Source: Comamonadaceae bacterium
GTDB lineage: Bacteria > Pseudomonadota > Gammaproteobacteria > Burkholderiales > Burkholderiaceae_C
Direction of reading: 5' to 3'
DNA: 37,105 bases
Assembly: GCA_947447405.1 (NCBI GenBank)
Contig: CANFKQ010000005.1
Span: forward strand, 1-37,105
The notes beneath the pieces were generated by a model that was given only the letters and a program-made list of their open reading frames with translations, had not been told where the DNA came from and searched no databases. Below are positions 7,171 through 34,487 of the stretch, piece by piece; within the stretch, counting starts at the first letter, position 1; each line of letters begins with the position of its first letter. Position numbers and translations under genes: made by a program.

Positions 7171-8175
7171 TTAAACCCCTTCAGGTTTGATTTGCGCCCG
7201 TGCAATCACAGGCTTCCAACGCGCTTGTTCGAGTTTGATGAACGCTTCAAACTCGGTCCGCGTGTTGCCTACGGCCAGCGCGGTGTCTTGGCTGAGTTTG
7301 TCGCTCACCACTTTGCCGCGCGCGGCTGCGATGGCTTCTTTTTCTAGCTTGTCGATGTGGGCTTTGGCCATTTGACTAGGGGCTAGCAGGCCGTACCACT
7401 GCGTCATCTCAAAACCTTTGAAGCCTTGCTCGGCCACGGTGGGCACTTCGGGCAACAGGGGCAAGCGTGTACTGCTGCCGGTGGCAATGCAACGCAGCTT
7501 GCCTGCTTTGATGAACTGCAACAGCGCCGGTGCGCCCACGGCTGCGGCATCTAAACGGCCCGCCATCAGGTCGGTCAGCATGGGGCCAGTGCCACGGTAG
7601 GGCACGTGTAGCACAAAGGTGTCGGTGACCATCTTTAAGTATTCAAATGCCAAGTGGCCTGCGCTGCCGTTGCCTGCCGAGCCGTAGTTGAGTTTGGCGG
7701 GGTTGGCTTTGGCGTAGGCCACAAACTCTTTGAGGTTCTTCACGGGCAAGTCGGGGTGCACCACGTAGAGGCTGGGCACCTTCGAGATGAGTGTGATGGG
7801 TGTGAAGTCTTTGTTGGGGTCGTAGGGCAGTTTGGGGAAGATGTATTGGTTCACGGCCAGCGTCCCGATGTGGCCCAAGATAAGGGTGTGGTCATCGGTG
7901 GCGTGTGCCACGTCTTGCATGGCAATGTTGCCTGCGCCGCCGGGCTTGTTTTCAACAAACACGCTTTGACCTATGGTCTTGCTCATCTCGCCCGCCAAGG
8001 CGCGCGCCACAATTTCGCTGCTGCCGCCGGGGGCAAACGGCACGATGAAACGCAAAGGCTTGCTCGGCCATGCCGCTTGAACTTGAGAAAGTGCCGGCGA
8101 CACACCGAGTGCGCAGGCTGTGGTCGCGGCTAAGAGTTGGCGGCGGGTGAGGGGTGTGTCATGGTGGCTTTGCAT
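7171..8175 (-). CDS. Bug-family tripartite tricarboxylate transporter substrate-binding protein
   Basis: 334 aa with signal peptide; AWPSKPLRFIVPFAPGGSSEIVARALAGEMSKTIGQSVFVENKPGGAGNIAMQDVA is the classic Bug/TctC motif. Confidence 0.92.
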   Translation of the reverse strand: MQSHHDTPLTRRQLLAATTACALGVSPALSQVQAAWPSKPLRFIVPFAPGGSSEIVARALAGEMSKTIGQSVFVENKPGGAGNIAMQDVAHATDDHTLILGHIGTLAVNQYIFPKLPYDPNKDFTPITLISKVPSLYVVHPDLPVKNLKEFVAYAKANPAKLNYGSAGNGSAGHLAFEYLKMVTDTFVLHVPYRGTGPMLTDLMAGRLDAAAVGAPALLQFIKAGKLRCIATGSSTRLPLLPEVPTVAEQGFKGFEMTQWYGLLAPSQMAKAHIDKLEKEAIAAARGKVVSDKLSQDTALAVGNTRTEFEAFIKLEQARWKPVIARAQIKPEGV

Positions 8176-8192
8176 GTATTGGTCTCGCTCGA

Positions 8193-9188
8193 TTATTCGG
8201 TGGTGATGTGGCGTTCTTTGATCACACGCGTCCAGAGGGTGATCTGTTGCTCTATGAATTTTTTAGCTTGTTCTGGCGAGCCTTTTTGAATGTCACCACC
8301 AAGCTGTGCCACACGTGCTTTGACTTCAGGTGATTCCAACGCTTGTTGAAAAGCCGCTGCCAATTTGGCCACCACGGGCTCGGGTGTGTTAGCGGGGGCG
8401 AACACCGCATTCCATTCGTAAATCTCTGCGCCTTTCAAACCCGATTCGGCCAATGTGGGTACATCGGGCAGGATGGGTGAACGCTTCGCCGAGGTGACCG
8501 CCAATGCTTTGAGCTTGCCTGACTGCACATGTTGCAGCGTTGATGCAAGGTTGCCAAAGAACAAAGGCACTTGTCCACCTATTACGTCATTCAATGCAGG
8601 GCCGCCGCCTTTGTAGGGCACGTGCACCATGTCGACCTTGGCCGCTGATTCAAACAGTGCACCCGCCAAGTGCTGAGCCGAGCCGTTGCCTGATGATGCA
8701 TAGGACACCACATCTTTGTTTTGACGTGCGGCTGCAGTGAGTTCTGCAATGTTCTTTGCAGGGAAGTTGGCGTTGACCAACACCACGTTGGGGAACAAAG
8801 CCACTACGCCGATGGGCTTGAAAGCTTTGAGGCTGTCATAGGGGAGCTTGGGATACAGGGCTGGGTTGGCTGAGAACGACGATGCATCCAGCATGATGGT
8901 GTAGCCATCGGGTGCAGCTTTGGCGACAGCTGATGCGCCAATTTGACCACTGGCCCCGGGCTTGTTTTCGATGATCACGGCTTGACCCAGTGCCTCGCCC
9001 ATCTTGGGGGCAATCAACCGTGCCATGGCATCTGCGCCGCCACCAGGTGGATAGGTCACGACCAATGAGATGGGCTTGTTGGGGAAAGCGCCTTGTGCCA
9101 AAGCGACAGGTGCAAAGACGCATGTGCTGAGTACAGCCAGTGCCAATGCTTTGCGTGTGAGGCGGGCTTCAGAAGTGTTTGTCATCAT
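8193..9188 (-). CDS. Bug-family tripartite tricarboxylate transporter substrate-binding protein (second copy)
   Basis: 331 aa; FPNKPISLVVTYPPGGGADAMARLIAPKMGEALGQAVIIENKPGASGQIGASAVAKAAPDGYT; signal peptide. Confidence 0.93.
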   Translation of the reverse strand: MMTNTSEARLTRKALALAVLSTCVFAPVALAQGAFPNKPISLVVTYPPGGGADAMARLIAPKMGEALGQAVIIENKPGASGQIGASAVAKAAPDGYTIMLDASSFSANPALYPKLPYDSLKAFKPIGVVALFPNVVLVNANFPAKNIAELTAAARQNKDVVSYASSGNGSAQHLAGALFESAAKVDMVHVPYKGGGPALNDVIGGQVPLFFGNLASTLQHVQSGKLKALAVTSAKRSPILPDVPTLAESGLKGAEIYEWNAVFAPANTPEPVVAKLAAAFQQALESPEVKARVAQLGGDIQKGSPEQAKKFIEQQITLWTRVIKERHITTE

Positions 9189-25499: not shown

Positions 25500-27092
25500 T
25501 TAGAACGTGCGTTTTGCGACGATGGACAACACATCGAGTTCGGCTTGGTGATCCGCCTTGATATCGTTGAAACTCTTGCGTAACTTGTCTTCGCCGGTGG
25601 CTTGGGTAATCAAGCTGAGTTGGTCCACCAATAGCTTGAACTGGGCCGCAGCCAGCGCTGGGTGAGCCTTGGCATCGAGCACCAAACCGTTGGCGTGCGT
25701 GTGGTCTTCGGCTTCTTTGGCGGCAAATTCGGCGCGTGCTTCGTCGGTCAGGCGTTTGACTTCGTCGCCTGACAAATGCAGGCGCTCGGCTTCGGCCACG
25801 ATGAGTTCTTTTTCAGCACGGTCAAGCATGCCGTCTTCATATGCCAGCATTAAGCGTTGCTTGAAGGCTTCGCGGTCAATACGCAGTTGGTCGGTGAATG
25901 CTGATGCCAACAGGCCCGCAGGGATGGCAAAAATACCAATACCAATCAAAGCCACGACCACCGTGAGCAAGCGGCCCAATGGGGTGATGGGCGAAATGTC
26001 ACCGTAGCCCACTGATGCCAAGGTGATGATGGCCCAGTAAATGGATTGGGGAATATTTTCAAACTTGTCAGGCTGCGCCTCATGTTCGAGCAAGAAGCCC
26101 AAGCTGGCAGTCAGCACCACCAGTAACATCATCACAAATACCGATGCAAAGATGACTTGCCACTCGCGCTGCACCACTTTATAAAGGGTTTCCAGGGCTG
26201 AGGTGTAGCGTGTGAGTTTGAGCATCCGAATCAAACGGAAGACGCGCAAGAAACGCAAATCGACATGTTGACTAAATAGGCTTTCCAACACAAAAGGCAA
26301 GATCGCTAACAAGTCGATGATGGCGGAGCCCGAGCGTATATGGGCCCAATGTGGCAAGCGCAGATGCTTGTACTTTGGGTTTTCAGGTGCTGTGTAAACG
26401 CGAGCGATGTATTCGATGGTGAAGATGGTGAAGGCCATCATGTCCACGACATGAAATTCCATAGCAAATAGAGCTCTGAAGGATTCCACGGATTCAAGAA
26501 TCACACAGGTGATGGACAGTGCCACCCAAAACACAATGAAGTTGTCGATGTAGGTGTGCAAGCGACCCGAGTGTCCGGTCGGCACCAACAACGCAAATAT
26601 TTTGGCGCGAAGGGTTCGATCTGCATTGAGCTCTTGAAACTCATGCCACGCCGGAATGATTTGGCGTGACAGTTTGAACATTCGAGCCAATCGCATGATT
26701 CGTAACACGCGCAACATTTCCACATCGACATCCACGAAACGGGCGAAGTAGAAAGGGGCGATGGCAATCAAATCAATTAGCGCATAAAAGCTTATGGCAT
26801 ATCGCAAACGTGGGAAGCTTTTGCCTGCAAAGTCAGGGTTTAGGTGTGCTGTAGCCACACGCATCACATATTCGGCGGTGAAGATGCCTACTGTGACGAT
26901 GTCAAACCAATGGAACCAGTGTTTGTAGTCGTTGTAAATTTCTGGCGTGTTTTCGATCAAGACCGCAATCACGCTCGCCACAATCAGAAACGCAATGCTG
27001 CGTTCCACTTGGCGTTGAAAGCCGTGCTTGAACTCGGGGTCAAACACCCACTTGTAAAAACTGGCGAGTGGCGAGGTGTTGTGCGTGGTCAT
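25500..27092 (-). CDS. Voltage-gated-type K+ channel with tandem voltage-sensor domains (VSD-VSD-pore)
   Basis: 530 aa. VSD1 S4 LRVLRIMRLARMFKLSR, VSD2 S4 LRFLRVFRLIRMLKLTR, single pore ITLASVGYGDISP, C-terminal cytosolic tail. Confidence 0.9.
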   Translation of the reverse strand: MTTHNTSPLASFYKWVFDPEFKHGFQRQVERSIAFLIVASVIAVLIENTPEIYNDYKHWFHWFDIVTVGIFTAEYVMRVATAHLNPDFAGKSFPRLRYAISFYALIDLIAIAPFYFARFVDVDVEMLRVLRIMRLARMFKLSRQIIPAWHEFQELNADRTLRAKIFALLVPTGHSGRLHTYIDNFIVFWVALSITCVILESVESFRALFAMEFHVVDMMAFTIFTIEYIARVYTAPENPKYKHLRLPHWAHIRSGSAIIDLLAILPFVLESLFSQHVDLRFLRVFRLIRMLKLTRYTSALETLYKVVQREWQVIFASVFVMMLLVVLTASLGFLLEHEAQPDKFENIPQSIYWAIITLASVGYGDISPITPLGRLLTVVVALIGIGIFAIPAGLLASAFTDQLRIDREAFKQRLMLAYEDGMLDRAEKELIVAEAERLHLSGDEVKRLTDEARAEFAAKEAEDHTHANGLVLDAKAHPALAAAQFKLLVDQLSLITQATGEDKLRKSFNDIKADHQAELDVLSIVAKRTF

Positions 27093-27904
27093 CGGGGGTG
27101 TTGGTCGATCATTAATTGGCGCAGCGCAGCCATTTCTTTGCGCAGTTCTTGCAGCTCTTCTTGCACTGTAAGTTGGTGGTGGTGATCACGATGGTCTTTG
27201 TCATGGTCTGCGGTGATGGAGTCCACGATCACAGCGATGAACAAGTTGAAGATGATGAACGTGGCGATCAGGATGAACAGAATGAAGAAGATCCACGCAT
27301 AGGGGAACATTTCCATGACAGGTCGCGCAATTCCGTCTGCCCAGCTTTCCAGCGTCATCACTTGGAACAGGGTAAAGGCACTGGTGCTCAAGTCGCCAAA
27401 CCAATCTGGAAAGTCGTGGCGGAAGATGTTGGTGGCAATCACCGACGCCACATAGAAGATGATCAGAATCAGTCCAAACACCGAGCCCAAGCCAGGCAAT
27501 GAGCTGAGCAAGCCGCCCACCACTTTGCGCATGCTCTCGACTTTGTTGATGAGGCGCAGCACCCGCAACACACGAAGTGCACGCAGCACAGACAAAGAGC
27601 CAGAGGCAGGCACCAGTGCAATGCCCACCACGATGAAGTCAAACACACTCCAAGCGTCTTTGAAAAACGAAAAGCCACGCGCAGCAATGAGCAACACGAT
27701 TTCGGCGATGAAGATGCCCAAGATGACGTGGTCTAGCAAGAACAATTCATGCCCCCACGACTCCATCACACTGTGGTTAGTCTCAATGCCCAAGATGGCG
27801 GCGTTGATGACGATGAGAAAAACTAAGAAATTTTGAATGCCATGGTGCGTAATGAATTGTTCAATTCGATCACGCCAAGTGACGACTTCGATGGTGCTTT
27901 GCAT
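27089..27904 (-). CDS. BacNav-type voltage-gated sodium channel (NaChBac-like)
   Basis: 271 aa, 6TM; S4 LRALRVLRVLRLINKV; pore FTLFQVMTLESWADGIARPVM (BacNav-type LESW filter); S6 ILIATFIIFNLFIAVIVDSI; C-terminal coiled-coil-like VQEELQELRKEMAALRQL. Confidence 0.92.
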   Translation of the reverse strand: MQSTIEVVTWRDRIEQFITHHGIQNFLVFLIVINAAILGIETNHSVMESWGHELFLLDHVILGIFIAEIVLLIAARGFSFFKDAWSVFDFIVVGIALVPASGSLSVLRALRVLRVLRLINKVESMRKVVGGLLSSLPGLGSVFGLILIIFYVASVIATNIFRHDFPDWFGDLSTSAFTLFQVMTLESWADGIARPVMEMFPYAWIFFILFILIATFIIFNLFIAVIVDSITADHDKDHRDHHHQLTVQEELQELRKEMAALRQLMIDQHPR

Positions 27905-28029
27905 TGCTAAATCCGCGAGCTAACGGTTGATATGTGACAACCTTCCACTCTACCTTATCGAGCTGTTTGTCTCACTGAACGGTGTGTTGGCAGGCGGACG
28001 GAATCCTCAGGTGTTGAAATCAAAGACTT

Positions 28030-28059
28030 TGAAAATTTATTGAATTATTTGATATAAAT
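28030..28059 (+). promoter_or_regulatory. Candidate sigma70 promoter for the divergent K+ channel
   Basis: TTGAAA - 18 bp - TATAAA in the AT-rich divergent intergenic region. Confidence 0.35.
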
Positions 28060-28230
28060 TTTGGATTCTTTTGAATTAAAAAAATAATAGATATTTGGTG
28101 AATGTGATTCCCCTTGAATTGAAATAAATCCTTATGGGTTATTCGTGAGGTGTGGTGAGTACAGTGGTCATTCTTAAAATGATGACCGCTCCAAATTTTC
28201 CATTTGGTACCAATAAGGAAAGAAATACCT

Positions 28231-29262
28231 ATGCATGCAAATGTGCGTTACCAAGAAAACTCAGACAGCGTGATTCAACGCGTCTTCACAGACCCCACGA
28301 GCAATGCCTTCATGCGTTGGGTGGCGATGATCAATTTCTGGATTTTTGTGTCTTGTTTGTCTCTGGCCGGTGAAACCGTAGAGCCCTACGCCACCGTTCA
28401 TGCGAACTTGTTCAATTACATTGAATACGCCGCAGTGCTGTTCTTCACGATCGATTACCTTGGCAACTTGTACTTTGCCAAAGATCGCATGAAGTATTTC
28501 TTCAGCTTCTGGGGTTTGGTGGACTTGATCTCCATTTTGCCTACCTACTTGACCATCATGAACTTGACCGCCTTGCAAGGCTCTAAAGTTTTCCGCGTTT
28601 TGCGCGTGGTCCGAGTGCTCCGAGTGTTGAAGATGGCACGCATTGCTTTGCAACAGTTGGAACAAAAACTGGAAAGCTCCAACCCCATCCTGACCAACCT
28701 CAAGATCTATTTCATCGCCTTGTTTTCTGTGGTGATGATCTCTAGCACCTTGATGTACTACGTCGAAGGCGATTTGTATTCCGCAGACGCGATCGCACTG
28801 GGCCAAGCCAAGTTGGATGCGCAAATCAAAGCGACACCGTTGCCTGCGGATGCGCCACCTGAAGCGGCTAAGTTCATGCCTGTGGATCCCATCAGTGGCA
28901 ACCCAATTCCTGAAGACAAGCGTTTCTTCACATCCATCCCTGCAGCGATGTGGTGGTGTATGGTGACTTTGACCACGACGGGTTACGGCGATATGTTCCC
29001 GCTCACTTTTGGTGGACGATTCATTGCCGCAGTCACTATGTTGATGGGCTTGGTACTGTTTGGTATTTTGTTGAACATCGTGGGTAAAACCATCATGGTG
29101 TTGCTGTTTGGTGAGCAGTTGACCGAAGACAACACATCGCCAGCATCACGCGAAACTATTTTGCGCATGATGGTGAGCCGTAAATGGATTTCAGAGCACC
29201 GTGCTTACGAGTTGGAGCTGATGTCTGAAGAAGATATCAAGAACCGCGCGAAAGACCTCTAA
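28231..29262 (+). CDS. 6TM voltage-gated-type K+ channel with long S5-pore insertion
   Basis: Start ATG 28231 (MHANVRYQ) after AAGGAAAG RBS preferred over 28204. S4 KVFRVLRVVRVLRVLKMAR; pore WWCMVTLTTTGYGDMFPLT; about 50 aa between S5 and pore helix. Confidence 0.9.
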   Translation: MHANVRYQENSDSVIQRVFTDPTSNAFMRWVAMINFWIFVSCLSLAGETVEPYATVHANLFNYIEYAAVLFFTIDYLGNLYFAKDRMKYFFSFWGLVDLISILPTYLTIMNLTALQGSKVFRVLRVVRVLRVLKMARIALQQLEQKLESSNPILTNLKIYFIALFSVVMISSTLMYYVEGDLYSADAIALGQAKLDAQIKATPLPADAPPEAAKFMPVDPISGNPIPEDKRFFTSIPAAMWWCMVTLTTTGYGDMFPLTFGGRFIAAVTMLMGLVLFGILLNIVGKTIMVLLFGEQLTEDNTSPASRETILRMMVSRKWISEHRAYELELMSEEDIKNRAKDL

Positions 29263-29278
29263 GTCATATTTGCCCAAT

Positions 29279-29310
29279 AAAAATGGCCGCTCAGTGAGCG
29301 GCCATTTTTT
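29279..29310. terminator. Bidirectional rho-independent terminator between convergent genes
   Basis: AAAAATGGCCGCTCA-G-TGAGCGGCCATTTTTT, near-perfect palindrome with A/T tracts on both sides. Confidence 0.88.
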
Positions 29311-29322
29311 ATGCGGGTTCAT

Positions 29323-29895
29323 TTAGATGAACAACATAAATCCGTTGATGGTGCAGAAGATGCCCACCAAGCCTAGAAAGCAAGGAACCCAAAAGAGGGC
29401 CATGGTTCCAGTCAAGATGGCTACCGAGGTGAGTACGATAGAAATTTGCAGCAAAGCTTCTGCATAGTCAAACCAAGGGTCTTGGCGCAAAGCGATGTCG
29501 CGCTCATGCTCGTGTTCTTTGGCTTTTTCCATCAGCTCTTTCTTGCCGTCGCCAGTTTCTGGTTCGGACTCGTAGCGAGCGATGTTCTTTTCGTAGGCCT
29601 CTAGTTTCTTCTCAGCCATTTGTTTAGCAGCAGGCGAGAGTTTGTCGCTGGCCAGTTGAATGCGTAGCTCATCCGCAGCGATTTTGTAATCTGTCTGACG
29701 AATGTTTTTGGCTTGGTAGAACGAATAAGCGTTGGCAGCCAAGATGTTGTTGCTCATGCTTTCTTTGGACGCGTTGTTACCGCCTAAGCTGGCGATGGCC
29801 AAGCACATGGCCAAAGTCGAGACCAACATGGCGCAACGGGTGCGAAATGGGTCGTTGCCGTGTTCTGGCAATTCGGTTTCTGGAACCTCACTCAT
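29323..29895 (-). CDS. DUF4337-like membrane protein
   Basis: 190 aa; N-terminal TM CAMLVSTLAMCLAIASLGGNNASKE, NNILAANAYSFYQAKNIRQTDYKIA, two C-terminal TM segments. Confidence 0.75.
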   Translation of the reverse strand: MSEVPETELPEHGNDPFRTRCAMLVSTLAMCLAIASLGGNNASKESMSNNILAANAYSFYQAKNIRQTDYKIAADELRIQLASDKLSPAAKQMAEKKLEAYEKNIARYESEPETGDGKKELMEKAKEHEHERDIALRQDPWFDYAEALLQISIVLTSVAILTGTMALFWVPCFLGLVGIFCTINGFMLFI

Positions 29896-30095
29896 AGATC
29901 TTCCTTGTTTTTATCTTTGCGTTTGACAAATAATTTGTAGATGGCGACCACGGTCAAGACGGCAGCCACCACACATACCACCAATTCGGTGATGGTCAGT
30001 TGGTGGACGAATTGATCAACGTAGTCGTAGGTCGAGAGAGGCGTGTAAACGTCTGGGTTCTCTTGTTTGTACTTTTCGTAAGCGCCGTTGTCCAT
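29892..30095 (-). CDS. Small single-TM protein (67 aa)
   Basis: MDNGAYEKYKQENPDVYTPLSTYDYVDQFVHQLTITELVVCVVAAVLTVVAIYKLFVKRKDKNKEDL; ATGA overlap with the downstream DUF4337 gene supports translation. Confidence 0.7.
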   Translation of the reverse strand: MDNGAYEKYKQENPDVYTPLSTYDYVDQFVHQLTITELVVCVVAAVLTVVAIYKLFVKRKDKNKEDL

Positions 30096-30113
30096 GCTTG
30101 CTTTCTGTGAGGT

Positions 30114-31082
30114 TTAGGCCTGTTTGTTGGCTGCAGAGATTTGCTTCTCTTCTTCCATCTGGTGTTTGATGGCGTCCACTTGCTCATCAGACATACCCAG
30201 TTTGGCTTGCATGATTTTAAGTTGGGCTTGTTCCTCGTCTGTCACGACACCATCGGCTAGCACGTTGCGAACTTCCATCTCATACAGGGCTTGTCGGCGC
30301 TCCACTTGTGCGGTGTAGGCCGTTGCCACCACACCCGTCAGGATCGCGGCCAAAGCGATGGACAAAATTTGCGTGAAGATGACCAAAATTGTTCCGAAGA
30401 AGGTGATCGGATCCACGTTGCCCCAGCCAGACACGATGGTGATGACAAACCAGTGCATGGCCGCAGGGATGGAGGGAAACACTTCAGGTTGCTCATGGCC
30501 TTCGATGATGTAGATCAGCGAAGAGAACAACAAACAGCTGATGAACAGCAAAAACACGGCGGATGAAAAAGAATCTTTTTCAGCCTTGACGGCTGCCACC
30601 ATGTCTTCAAATGCACTGTTATAGCGAGAGAGTTTGAAAATTCGCATCAAACGGAACATACGCAGTACGCGTAAGTCTGCGCCTGGGAACAGCAGTTGCA
30701 AGTAAAACGGCACCGTGCTGACAAAGTCAATGATGCCGTAGAAGCTGAACACATACTCTTTTCGTCCATCCCACTGCGTCCCACCCGTGCGGAGGTACTT
30801 TTCGCCATAGGACCAAACGCGCATGACGAACTCTACCGAGAACACCGCGACACTGAACATGTCAAACAAGTGGAACTCGTGTTCAAAGGCTTCATGAATT
30901 TCGGGCACAGACTCCAAAATGATGCCAATCACGTTTGCCACCACCAATAGGGCAATGAAAATTTCGACGAAGTGACTGTACTTGTCAGGCACCTCACCTT
31001 CCATGATTTCGAAGGTGCGACGCTTGATGCGTTCGTAAGTAGAAGGGGTCGTAACTGCTGTGGTCATGGTGCGCTCATTCAT
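30114..31082 (-). CDS. 6TM ion channel protein with non-canonical filter SGWGN
   Basis: 322 aa; S4 LRVLRMFRLMRIFKLSR; pore MHWFVITIVSGWGNVDPITFFG; alternative start MTTAVTT at 31067. Confidence 0.87.
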   Translation of the reverse strand: MNERTMTTAVTTPSTYERIKRRTFEIMEGEVPDKYSHFVEIFIALLVVANVIGIILESVPEIHEAFEHEFHLFDMFSVAVFSVEFVMRVWSYGEKYLRTGGTQWDGRKEYVFSFYGIIDFVSTVPFYLQLLFPGADLRVLRMFRLMRIFKLSRYNSAFEDMVAAVKAEKDSFSSAVFLLFISCLLFSSLIYIIEGHEQPEVFPSIPAAMHWFVITIVSGWGNVDPITFFGTILVIFTQILSIALAAILTGVVATAYTAQVERRQALYEMEVRNVLADGVVTDEEQAQLKIMQAKLGMSDEQVDAIKHQMEEEKQISAANKQA

Positions 31083-31986
31083 TGGCGGACGATTTGTTTT
31101 TGGCGCGGAGCATCATGGCTTCGACTTGCTCATCTGTCAGGCGGTAATGTGCTTGCAGACGTTGCAGCGTTTCTTGCTCTTCTTCTGACATGTTGCCATC
31201 TTTGAAAACTTCGCGCAGCTGGGCTTCAAATGCCGCTTTCTTGCGTGCCACTTGGTTGGAGAAGGCCGAAGCCACGATACCGGTCATGATGGCGGCCATA
31301 CACACGCCCAAGAAGCCAGTGATGAGCGCAATGGCTTCACCTGCTTTGGTCATGGGCTCGACGTTGCCGTAACCTGAGGTGATGGTCACGATGGACCAAT
31401 AAATGGAATGAGGAATGGTGCCAAAAAACTCGGGTTGGTGGTGTCCTTCAGCGAAGTGCATCAACGAGGCTGACACGATGGTGGCGATGGTCAACAAGAA
31501 CACAGCTGAGCCAAATGCTTGGCGTTCGGAGTGAATGGCATGAAACAGGTCTTGCAACGCAGTGTTGTATTTGGAGAGTTTCAAAATCCGCAGCAGACGC
31601 AGCACCCGCAAGATGCGTAAGTCCAAGCCGGGCATGAACATGTGCATGTAATAAGGCATGGTGGCAAAGAAGTCCACCAAACCAAATGCGCTGAACATGT
31701 ACTCAAAGCGGCCTTTCCAAGTTCCGCCGTGTTCTTGGCTGTATTTGGCGCCCAAGGACCACACGCGAGAAATGTATTCACATGTAAAGAACATCACGCT
31801 CCAAAATTCGAGCTCATGAAAGAAGTCACGAAATTCTGCGTGGATTTCGGGGACGGAATCAAGAATCACGGCCGAACAGTTGACCAACACCACAAGTGTG
31901 ATGGCCCATTCAACGTAGCGGCTGGCTGTGTGCTTGGGCGAGCCATCCAGTATTTCCATCAGGGTGTTCTTAAAACCTGTAGTCAT
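31075..31986 (-). CDS. 6TM ion channel protein with non-canonical filter SGYGN
   Basis: 303 aa; S4 LRILRVLRLLRILKLSK; pore IYWSIVTITSGYGNVEPMTKAG; C-terminal cytosolic helical tail. Confidence 0.88.
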   Translation of the reverse strand: MTTGFKNTLMEILDGSPKHTASRYVEWAITLVVLVNCSAVILDSVPEIHAEFRDFFHELEFWSVMFFTCEYISRVWSLGAKYSQEHGGTWKGRFEYMFSAFGLVDFFATMPYYMHMFMPGLDLRILRVLRLLRILKLSKYNTALQDLFHAIHSERQAFGSAVFLLTIATIVSASLMHFAEGHHQPEFFGTIPHSIYWSIVTITSGYGNVEPMTKAGEAIALITGFLGVCMAAIMTGIVASAFSNQVARKKAAFEAQLREVFKDGNMSEEEQETLQRLQAHYRLTDEQVEAMMLRAKNKSSANE

Positions 31987-32030
31987 TGCGAAGGTCTAAC
32001 GAAATTAAATATAAGAAGTGTTTGAGCCAA

Positions 32031-32063
32031 CAAGCCGCCACACGTTCAAGGTGTGGCGGCTTG
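32031..32063. other. Strong intergenic hairpin between two channel genes (possible attenuator or weak terminator)
   Basis: CAAGCCGCCACAC-loop-GTGTGGCGGCTTG, perfect 13 bp stem, poor T-run on the minus strand. Confidence 0.6.
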
Positions 32064-32080
32064 TGGATGGAGACCTTGGC

Positions 32081-33718
32081 TTAGGCTTTGCCTTGAATTT
32101 TTTGCCACAAGGCCAATTCATGGGCCGACAGACGTTCACCTTGTTGCGCTGCTGTCTCAAATTGGGTCGCATCGGTTTGCACGCCGAGTTGTCGAATTTG
32201 GCCTAACAACACTTTGTAGTGCTCGACAGCCAGAGCTGGATTTTCTGCAATTTTGTGAATGGGCAGCGGGTTGCGTTCTTCCAACTCGTGTTCTTTGATG
32301 ACCACTTCAATCAAGGCGTTGACTTCAGCGGTTGTCAAATGCAAGCGCTTGGCTTCGGAGCGAATGATCACAGCTTCATCGTCGCTGATGTGGCCGTCTT
32401 TGAGGATGGCAAACAAGTTGGCTTTCAACTGGTCACGTTCTTTGACCAATTCATCACTGAAGGCCGAGGCCAACAGCGCAGCAGGAATCGCAAATATACC
32501 AATGCCCATCAAAGCCAGAACGCTTGTCATCGCTCGGCCCATCGGTGTGACAGGTGAAATGTCGCCATAACCCACAGAGGCCAAGGTGATGACCGCCCAG
32601 TAGATGGAGGTGGGAATGTTCTCAAATTTCTCAGGCTGAGCGTCGTATTCAAACAAGTAGCCTAAGCTGGCGGTCAAGACCAATAGCAACATCATGATGA
32701 AGGTGGCGGCCCCCATGACAGGCCATTCGCGCACGACGACTTTGACCAACACGGCGGTAGCATCGCTGCCGCGTGTTAGTTTGAGCAATCGTGCCAATCG
32801 GAAAACTCGCAAGAAACGCAAGTCCATCAAGTGATGCAAGAACACTTCCAAGAAGAAGGGCAGCACGGCCAAGAAGTCAATGAACGTGGAGGGTGATTTG
32901 GCCTGCTTGAAGCGACCCAAAAACGCACCTTTGTAACCAGGCTCTTCCACGCAAGAGTAAATGCGCATGCAGTACTCAACCGTGAAGATGGCCACGGCCA
33001 CGGCGTCCAAGATGACAAATTGCAAGTGCAACACGTAGTGAATGCCCTTCACCGATTCCAAGATCACAGCCATCACAGACAGCAAAACCCACACTGCAAT
33101 GAACACCTCAAAGATGTTTTGCATGGTGCCGCCGTAGTTGCTAGGAAATACCAAGGCATGAACTTTTTGGCGGAAGGTACGGTCTTTGTTGAGTTCTTTG
33201 AATTCAGCCATGGCTGGAATCAACACACGGAACAACTTCAAGATTCGCAAGAGTCGCAAGAATCGCAACACGCGCAAGTCGATGGGGATGAAGGCCTTCA
33301 AGTAGAAGGGCGCCACAGCTAAGAAGTCGATGATGGCGAAGGGGCTAGACACAAAGCCCCAACGTGCATGCTTGCGGTTTTTGAACTCTTCGTCCTCGGG
33401 GGCGAGGTACAGGCGCAAAGCGTATTCAATGGTGAACACGGCCACCGATAGGATGTCAAAAAACTCAAACCATCCGCGGTACGGCTCGTATACGGCAGGT
33501 ACGTGTTCAAACATGAGGCTGAACAAGTTACCAATAATCAGATAGCTGATCCACTTGTCCAGGTCTTTTTGAAAGTTGCCAGGAATGTTGGGATCCAGCA
33601 GCCATGAGTACAACCACTTGCGCATCGGCAGGTTGCGATCAATGTTGGCCTCTTCGTCTTGTCCCAGAATGGCTTGGACGTTGAGGTCTTTTAGAAATTT
33701 GTCGTGTTTGTTTTCCAT
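32081..33718 (-). CDS. Voltage-gated-type K+ channel with tandem voltage-sensor domains (paralog of 25500..27092)
   Basis: 545 aa. VSD1 S4 LRVLRFLRLLRILKLFR, VSD2 S4 LRFLRVFRLARLLKLTR, single pore ITLASVGYGDISP. Confidence 0.9.
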   Translation of the reverse strand: MENKHDKFLKDLNVQAILGQDEEANIDRNLPMRKWLYSWLLDPNIPGNFQKDLDKWISYLIIGNLFSLMFEHVPAVYEPYRGWFEFFDILSVAVFTIEYALRLYLAPEDEEFKNRKHARWGFVSSPFAIIDFLAVAPFYLKAFIPIDLRVLRFLRLLRILKLFRVLIPAMAEFKELNKDRTFRQKVHALVFPSNYGGTMQNIFEVFIAVWVLLSVMAVILESVKGIHYVLHLQFVILDAVAVAIFTVEYCMRIYSCVEEPGYKGAFLGRFKQAKSPSTFIDFLAVLPFFLEVFLHHLMDLRFLRVFRLARLLKLTRGSDATAVLVKVVVREWPVMGAATFIMMLLLVLTASLGYLFEYDAQPEKFENIPTSIYWAVITLASVGYGDISPVTPMGRAMTSVLALMGIGIFAIPAALLASAFSDELVKERDQLKANLFAILKDGHISDDEAVIIRSEAKRLHLTTAEVNALIEVVIKEHELEERNPLPIHKIAENPALAVEHYKVLLGQIRQLGVQTDATQFETAAQQGERLSAHELALWQKIQGKA

Positions 33719-33726
33719 GTCAGACC

Positions 33727-34314
33727 TCAGAATTCGAATTCAGCAACTTTGATGGCATAGCCGCCCTTGTCACACACGGACAGGCGCAACTGCATCTTGT
33801 AGTCAATGGGGTCGGCTTCGATCAATTGCGAGGCCACAAAGGGGGTGGCAGAGCCAGGTGGGGTCGGCATCAAGTCTTCCAACAAGATGGCGCCCATCAA
33901 GGTGCGGTCAGAAGGCACGCATGCCGGCACAAAGTGTGGTGCGACATTGAAGAATGGATTGATTTGCTCTTTCAGATCCGTGGTTTCCATGATGTGTGCC
34001 AAGCAAGCGCCCCACGTGCCAGCAGTGCCTGCTTTGGCGTCGGCGCCAGGTTTGGTGCCCCCTTTGCAGGCAGGGTGCTGCGTGTTGGCTTCAAAGCGCG
34101 TGGTGCCGGTTTCGGTCAACCACGCAACCCAAGCCTCGCCATTGCTTTTGGCCGTTTCGGTCTTTAGAGCTTCTTTGTAATTGACCACACCTAGCCAGGT
34201 AACGGCAATCACAATCAAGACTAAAAAGGCTAGAAAAATTTTGTCGGCGGTGTTGGGGCCGAGTTGCTGCTGATCGCTTGAGTGATCTGTGGAAGATGCC
34301 ATGGGTATCGCCAT
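33727..34314 (-). CDS. Hypothetical single-TM protein with predicted cysteine-containing periplasmic domain
   Basis: 195 aa; TM KIFLAFLVLIVIAVTWLGVVNY then soluble part with four Cys (HPACKG, WGACLA, VPACVP, SVCDKG); 8 bp from the next channel gene. Confidence 0.7.
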   Translation of the reverse strand: MAIPMASSTDHSSDQQQLGPNTADKIFLAFLVLIVIAVTWLGVVNYKEALKTETAKSNGEAWVAWLTETGTTRFEANTQHPACKGGTKPGADAKAGTAGTWGACLAHIMETTDLKEQINPFFNVAPHFVPACVPSDRTLMGAILLEDLMPTPPGSATPFVASQLIEADPIDYKMQLRLSVCDKGGYAIKVAEFEF

Positions 34315-34455: not shown

Positions 34456-34487
34456 GTAAAAAAAGCCGCTATGAAAGCGGCTTTTTC
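34456..34487. terminator. Bidirectional rho-independent terminator
   Basis: TAAAAAAAGCCGCT-ATGAA-AGCGGCTTTTT located between the channel cluster and the ABC importer operon. Confidence 0.85.

Follow-up and report, generated by a model that had tools for sequence, protein, structure and literature searches.

The bacterial K+ channel Kch is a voltage-dependent conductance that was proposed to shape membrane potential (PMC11928028), and both Kch and YugO, channels of bacterial electrical signaling, are encoded by single scattered genes. Kv-type K+ channels (Shaker, KCNQ and MlotiK1-like proteins; PF00520) have six transmembrane helices (6TM), with one voltage-sensor domain (VSD; S1-S4) carrying an RxxR-type S4 and an S5-P-S6 pore with a GYGD filter. 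Bacterial sodium channels (BacNav) such as NaChBac, NavAb and NavMs are small 6TM proteins with a TLESW filter and a charged C-terminal tail. In K+ channels, the backbone carbonyls of TxGYG form four K+ sites; NaK, which is non-selective, has two, and with four sites K+ selectivity is restored (PMC9822992). The non-selective channels NaK, HCN and CNG are natural departures from TVGYGD with fewer filter sites (PMC9822992, PMC13088309). The locus reported here would share a bacterial voltage-dependent K+ conductance with Kch and YugO, but it is a complete multi-channel locus with candidate depolarizing partners. Judged by their domains, all of its channels belong to the voltage-gated channel superfamily. 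To our knowledge, no locus containing all voltage-gated channels of a genome has been described. The initial annotation likewise knew of no such bacterial locus, and none was found in the open-access literature searched (subscription papers being largely outside it), which also held nothing relevant on channels of Limnohabitans.

The window, that is, the whole stretch of 37,105 nucleotides analyzed, is contig 5 of its source assembly. The nine ORFs within 25500-34314, lettered A through I in order of increasing coordinate, are all open and intact, and the six channel and three small membrane-protein genes recorded in the initial annotation are all present. Pfam places the Ion_trans domain (PF00520) on six of the nine, with E values of 1e-24 to 5e-47. 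The reported arrangement of two minus-strand runs and one divergent gene with tight junctions was also recovered: the run I-H-G-F-E-D has gaps of 9 bp (I/H), 95 bp (H/G) and 19 bp (F/E) and overlaps of 8 bp (the end of G with the start of F) and 4 bp (E/D); B-A is a second minus-strand run, joined by a 4 bp overlap between the end of B and the start of A; and C lies alone on the plus strand. The terminator scan and the ORF positions put a near-perfect inverted repeat (34460..34486) in the interval separating gene I from an ABC operon upstream of it; the repeat is likely a terminator that parts this run of channel genes from the operon. A sigma-70 promoter scan gave scores not above those of shuffles. 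In the whole 2.21 Mb assembly, which is 83.6% complete, eight Ion_trans domain matches were detected, and 8/8 lie inside this 8.8 kb, so that every Ion_trans gene detected in the genome (six) is a member of the locus; such clustering is not expected by chance. Two relatives rated 100% complete (G225 and G364) also have all eight domain matches, and therefore six genes, in the cluster, and a closed genome (G121) has all four of its Ion_trans genes there, B and C being absent.

Channels H (32081..33718, minus strand, 545 aa) and A (25500..27092, minus strand, 530 aa; 43% identity to H) consist of one S1-S4 unit followed by a second S1-S4 unit with S5-P-S6, and Pfam finds two Ion_trans S1-S4 units in each. 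An AlphaFold2 model of H, of moderate confidence (mean pLDDT 72), has ten membrane helices in the expected order. Across 28 aligned A/H-type sequences, the RxxRxxRxxRxxK series is kept in both S4 segments, and the S2 Glu and S3 Asp are invariant in both VSD units; because these features are retained in each unit, both VSDs look voltage-sensing. The filter of H, SVGYGD (32561..32578, minus strand), is of canonical length (W-x8-GYG), and W-x8-(ASV)GYGD, which conforms to the K+-channel pattern T/S-x-GYGD, was found in 113 distinct sequences of the H and A types. In the PDB, H is matched best by Kv7, Kv2 and Kv4. A and H thus resemble Kv-type channels, as does C, in the RxxR S4, S5-P-S6 and GYGD; in place of one VSD and six helices, however, they have two S1-S4 units and ten helices, a complete VSD being added in front, and a helical cytoplasmic tail, and H in addition has a linked one-TM protein (I). 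Two-pore channels (TPCs) also carry more than one VSD per polypeptide. TPCs duplicate the entire 6TM unit and hence have two pores, whereas A and H duplicate the VSD alone and have a single pore loop. Among 300 sampled genomes of the order, full-length A/H relatives were present only in the window's own genome and in one genome of family f18, and 293 sampled genomes of the class yielded none except in the window's own genome; two more f18 genomes each carry one. A search of open-access literature turned up no description of this VSD-VSD-pore architecture. In another Limnohabitans genome, two different A-type double-VSD channels lie in direct tandem (L012:2571-5806). The C-termini of F, G, H and A have a common helical tail with a DGxxxxEE-like motif, and that of F gave a weak match to TerB (E 8e-4), below the cut-off.

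Gene I (33727..34314, minus strand) encodes a 195 aa protein with one N-terminal TM helix and a presumed periplasmic domain. Its AlphaFold2 model (mean pLDDT 88) has a helix at 22-72 followed by a small alpha/beta domain, cysteines C83, C104, C132 and C181 are invariant in the alignment, and a Foldseek search of the PDB with the model gave nothing significant (best E 0.57). With edge effects controlled and some genomes counted twice, I lies directly 5' of H in 104/107 testable cases, and another family within the order likewise has diverged I genes ahead of H. Most simply, I is a candidate auxiliary subunit of H.

G (31075..31986, minus strand, 303 aa; Ion_trans E 3.6e-28) and F (30114..31082, minus strand, 322 aa; Ion_trans E 1.2e-24) are 6TM proteins whose VSD and pore are homologous to those of Kv channels by Pfam and phmmer, but their filters depart from the full-length TxxTVGYGD pattern. 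Canonical channels have W-x8-GYGD, for example WGVITLTTVGYGD, whereas the filter regions of G (WSIVTITSGYGN) and F (WFVITIVSGWGN) have W-x7, that is, one residue fewer, and the Asp is replaced. The filter of G, TSGYGN (31363..31380, minus strand), corresponds to TTVGYGD minus one residue, and that of F, VSGWGN (30417..30434, minus strand), is likewise one residue short. Among all loci fetched, the short filter was present in 133/133 distinct G/F sequences and in 0/180 distinct other channels, and the residue following GxG was N, G or H in the 133 and D in all 180 others. MAFFT and, independently, phmmer against Kv structures put the gap at the same point. A sequencing error is ruled out as its origin, since the deletion keeps the frame and recurs in 133 sequences. 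Re-reading confirmed the filters of the initial annotation, with TLESW in B, GYGD in A, C and H, SGYGN in G and SGWGN in F. A and H, with their doubled VSD, and G and F, with their shortened filter, are not plain Na+ or K+ channels, and the initial annotation had missed both features. As natural departures from TVGYGD, G and F are like NaK, HCN and CNG, but they lack one residue before a GxG that is neither changed nor widened, and they are 6TM voltage-sensor proteins encoded as a two-gene pair. Pfam found a cNMP domain in neither G nor F, and by sequence they fall outside the NaK/CNG/HCN group (2TM, or 6TM with a cNMP domain). Nothing relevant on short K+-type filters was found in the open-access literature searched, and judged by that literature, the double-VSD K+ channel, its linked protein I and the short-filter channel pair would all be new forms within the superfamily.

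In the tree, F, G and their canonical relatives form one clade each, and F and G are joined at 100/100, so that they appear to be sister clades from one short-filter ancestor. Most simply, these sequences point to one filter deletion followed by a duplication, predating the split of G/F between Limnohabitans and genus g261 (family f18). G and F are approximately 45% identical to each other. With edge effects controlled and some genomes counted twice, G was accompanied by F in 78/80 cases, and the two exceptions are probably products of fragmented assembly. The overlapping pair recurs in another family at 57-63% identity, with a 4 bp overlap in genus g261, where a CLC gene follows G-F. In that genus, two small proteins that resemble P-II by eye (the one scanned had no Pfam match) and a DUF1538 membrane protein lie 5' of G-F (L201:13549-16134). 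Given the gene overlap, the almost constant pairing and the identity of about 45%, the two proteins are probably subunits of one heterotetramer, although their adjacency may itself be a product of tandem duplication.

The deletion would remove one backbone-carbonyl layer between the pore helix and GxG, and for that reason G/F would be expected to be weakly selective; most likely, G/F would act as a weakly selective cation channel that is depolarizing at negative potentials. The three-layer filter could also still be K+-selective, or non-conducting. G and F might instead be silent or regulatory subunits that have no useful pore and modulate H or each other: all copies carry the deletion and have lost the Asp, F has Trp in place of Tyr, and one G orthologue (L025:2532-3428) has SGNGN in place of SGYGN. 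We regard this as unlikely, since the pore helix and GxG are kept under strong purifying selection, and G-F occurs in another family without an adjacent H (H being assessed at the locus only). The 133 natural short filters, set against 180 full-length relatives, allow a test of the idea that selectivity depends on how many sites a filter has; varying that number is reportedly the subject of Derebe et al. (2011).

B (27089..27904, minus strand, 271 aa; Ion_trans E 2.6e-41) is a BacNav-type sodium channel with a TLESWA filter that matches prokaryotic channels in the PDB at E 5e-73 and a NavAb fusion at 2.5e-65. It shares the small 6TM build, the TLESW-type filter and the charged C-terminal tail of BacNavs and is an ordinary member of that family, unusual solely in its gene company. 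C (28204..29262, plus strand, 352 aa) is a 6TM K+ channel by its TxTGYGD-type filter (TTTGYGD), with a long turret. D (29323..29895, minus strand) was correctly annotated as a DUF4337-like membrane protein (PF14235, E 2.9e-46), and it also lies directly 3' of H in relatives that have no G/F (L146, L152 and L162). E (29892..30095, minus strand) is a 67 aa protein with a single TM helix, found in the sub-clade of the window only; like the 195 aa protein I, it matches no Pfam family.

The locus is conserved beyond the source genome, whose nearest named relatives are Limnohabitans. The isolate Limnohabitans sp. Jir61 (NZ_NESD01000001) carries the same nine genes, with F 97% identical, and other relatives of the locus come from Limnohabitans and Comamonadaceae MAGs. 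Among the best 80 loci of the named-genome scan, the I-H-G-F order was held in 56/80, and the whole A-to-I set in nine-gene order was found in five further loci. Rhodoferax, Polaromonas and similar MAGs have I-H without G-F, and D directly follows H in some of them. The orthologues of B and C in other Limnohabitans are located at separate loci with other neighbors, sister species have A, B and C as solo or scattered genes while others lack part of them, and several sister species or Limnohabitans relatives have no G/F. Judged from this distribution, I-H-G-F is an ancient core and A, B (the Nav gene) and C are lineage additions, and most simply, the channel genes were brought together at a single site within the sub-clade of the window. 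The expectation that one set would be co-localized in multiple genera was borne out for the pairs I-H and G-F but does not extend to the nine genes as a whole; a multi-channel locus with candidate accessory subunits is real and conserved, but its conserved unit is I-H-G-F rather than the six-channel set first proposed. The full gene set is not essential, because G121 has neither B nor C and several sister species have no G/F.

In pairwise comparison of the window with close relatives, at dS of approximately 1, each of the nine genes had a dN/dS within 0.015-0.18, which indicates working genes under purifying selection. Decay or a one-strain oddity, the case named at the outset as refuting a functional module, is ruled out by this selection and by the conservation across loci, including the five further nine-gene loci; broken or fragmented reading frames were noticed solely in isolated MAG contigs (L029/L102 and L089). 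Neutral accretion, in which channel genes piled up at a tolerant site through tandem duplication and chance insertion and share no function, would fit the solo occurrence of A, B and C in sister species and the variation of downstream genes between lineages. It is quite improbable, however, given that the entire channel complement was collected in the sub-clade of the window, that five further loci share the nine-gene order and that dN/dS stays below 0.2 at dS near 1.

We give an even chance to the reading that the locus encodes a conserved Limnohabitans set of voltage-dependent cation conductances, in which the K+ channels H (with I), A and C are opposed by the weakly selective G/F and the Nav-type B. 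H, A and C would be K+-selective and repolarizing, B would provide an added Na+ path in the sub-clade of the window, and the set would fix and reset the membrane potential upon a change in K+/Na+ balance or energy state. A more specific version is tentative, namely a dedicated excitability module in which a heteromeric, three-site non-selective voltage-gated G/F channel, with a new type of filter, would work against a double-sensor K+ channel with its periplasmic subunit to give Limnohabitans regulated membrane-potential spikes or switches. Equally tentative is slow ion homeostasis, in which the channels would act as K+/Na+ safety valves when osmotic conditions shift or energy becomes limiting, and clustering would serve only to couple their expression; a TrkH K+ uptake gene adjoins I-H in another family (L260), a CLC gene follows G-F in genus g261, and freshwater oligotrophs meet low external ions. 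Against such valves, six voltage-sensing channels, two with doubled sensors, plus a Nav exceed what would be needed, and no mechanosensitive or ligand-binding domain was found save the weak TerB-like tail. We make no firm choice between signaling, favored by the many voltage sensors and the opposed conductances, and homeostasis, favored by TrkH beside I-H and CLC beside G-F. A and H offer a way into gating with two sensors per subunit (eight per tetramer, if they form tetramers), and H into the role of a linked one-TM subunit. Limnohabitans, a common freshwater genus with sequenced isolates such as Jir61, provides a concrete system in which to ask what purpose bacterial membrane electricity serves, and in the sub-clade of the window, the whole voltage-gated set at one locus of approximately 9 kb could be removed in a single step.

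In many Limnohabitans, the core lies amid urate/allantoin degradation, UreD and urea-ABC genes (flanks of L118, L119 and L166). This setting raises an ammonium or urea-nitrogen link, in which G/F would pass NH4+ from urease or ureide breakdown. We consider this highly improbable: the window genome carries UreD on a different contig, genomes with this gene may have no G/F, and G/F genomes of the other family show no UreD. Because UreD does not track G/F, we treat these genes as a shared neighborhood and not as a functional link. Anti-phage defense was also rejected, PADLOC matches being weak and C-terminal (E 2e-4 or worse). A motility role for the locus is possible because flagellin genes are present, and the same genes rule out a non-motile setting, which would exclude that role. 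In some Limnohabitans (L119:13679-15064 and L166:12921-14306), the gene directly after F encodes a ZIP-like transporter of 461 aa into which a cyclic-nucleotide-binding domain is inserted, as judged from a scan of the L119 copy. Elsewhere in the window, at 7171-9188, two tandem genes resemble tripartite-tricarboxylate (Bug) solute receptors by sequence alone.
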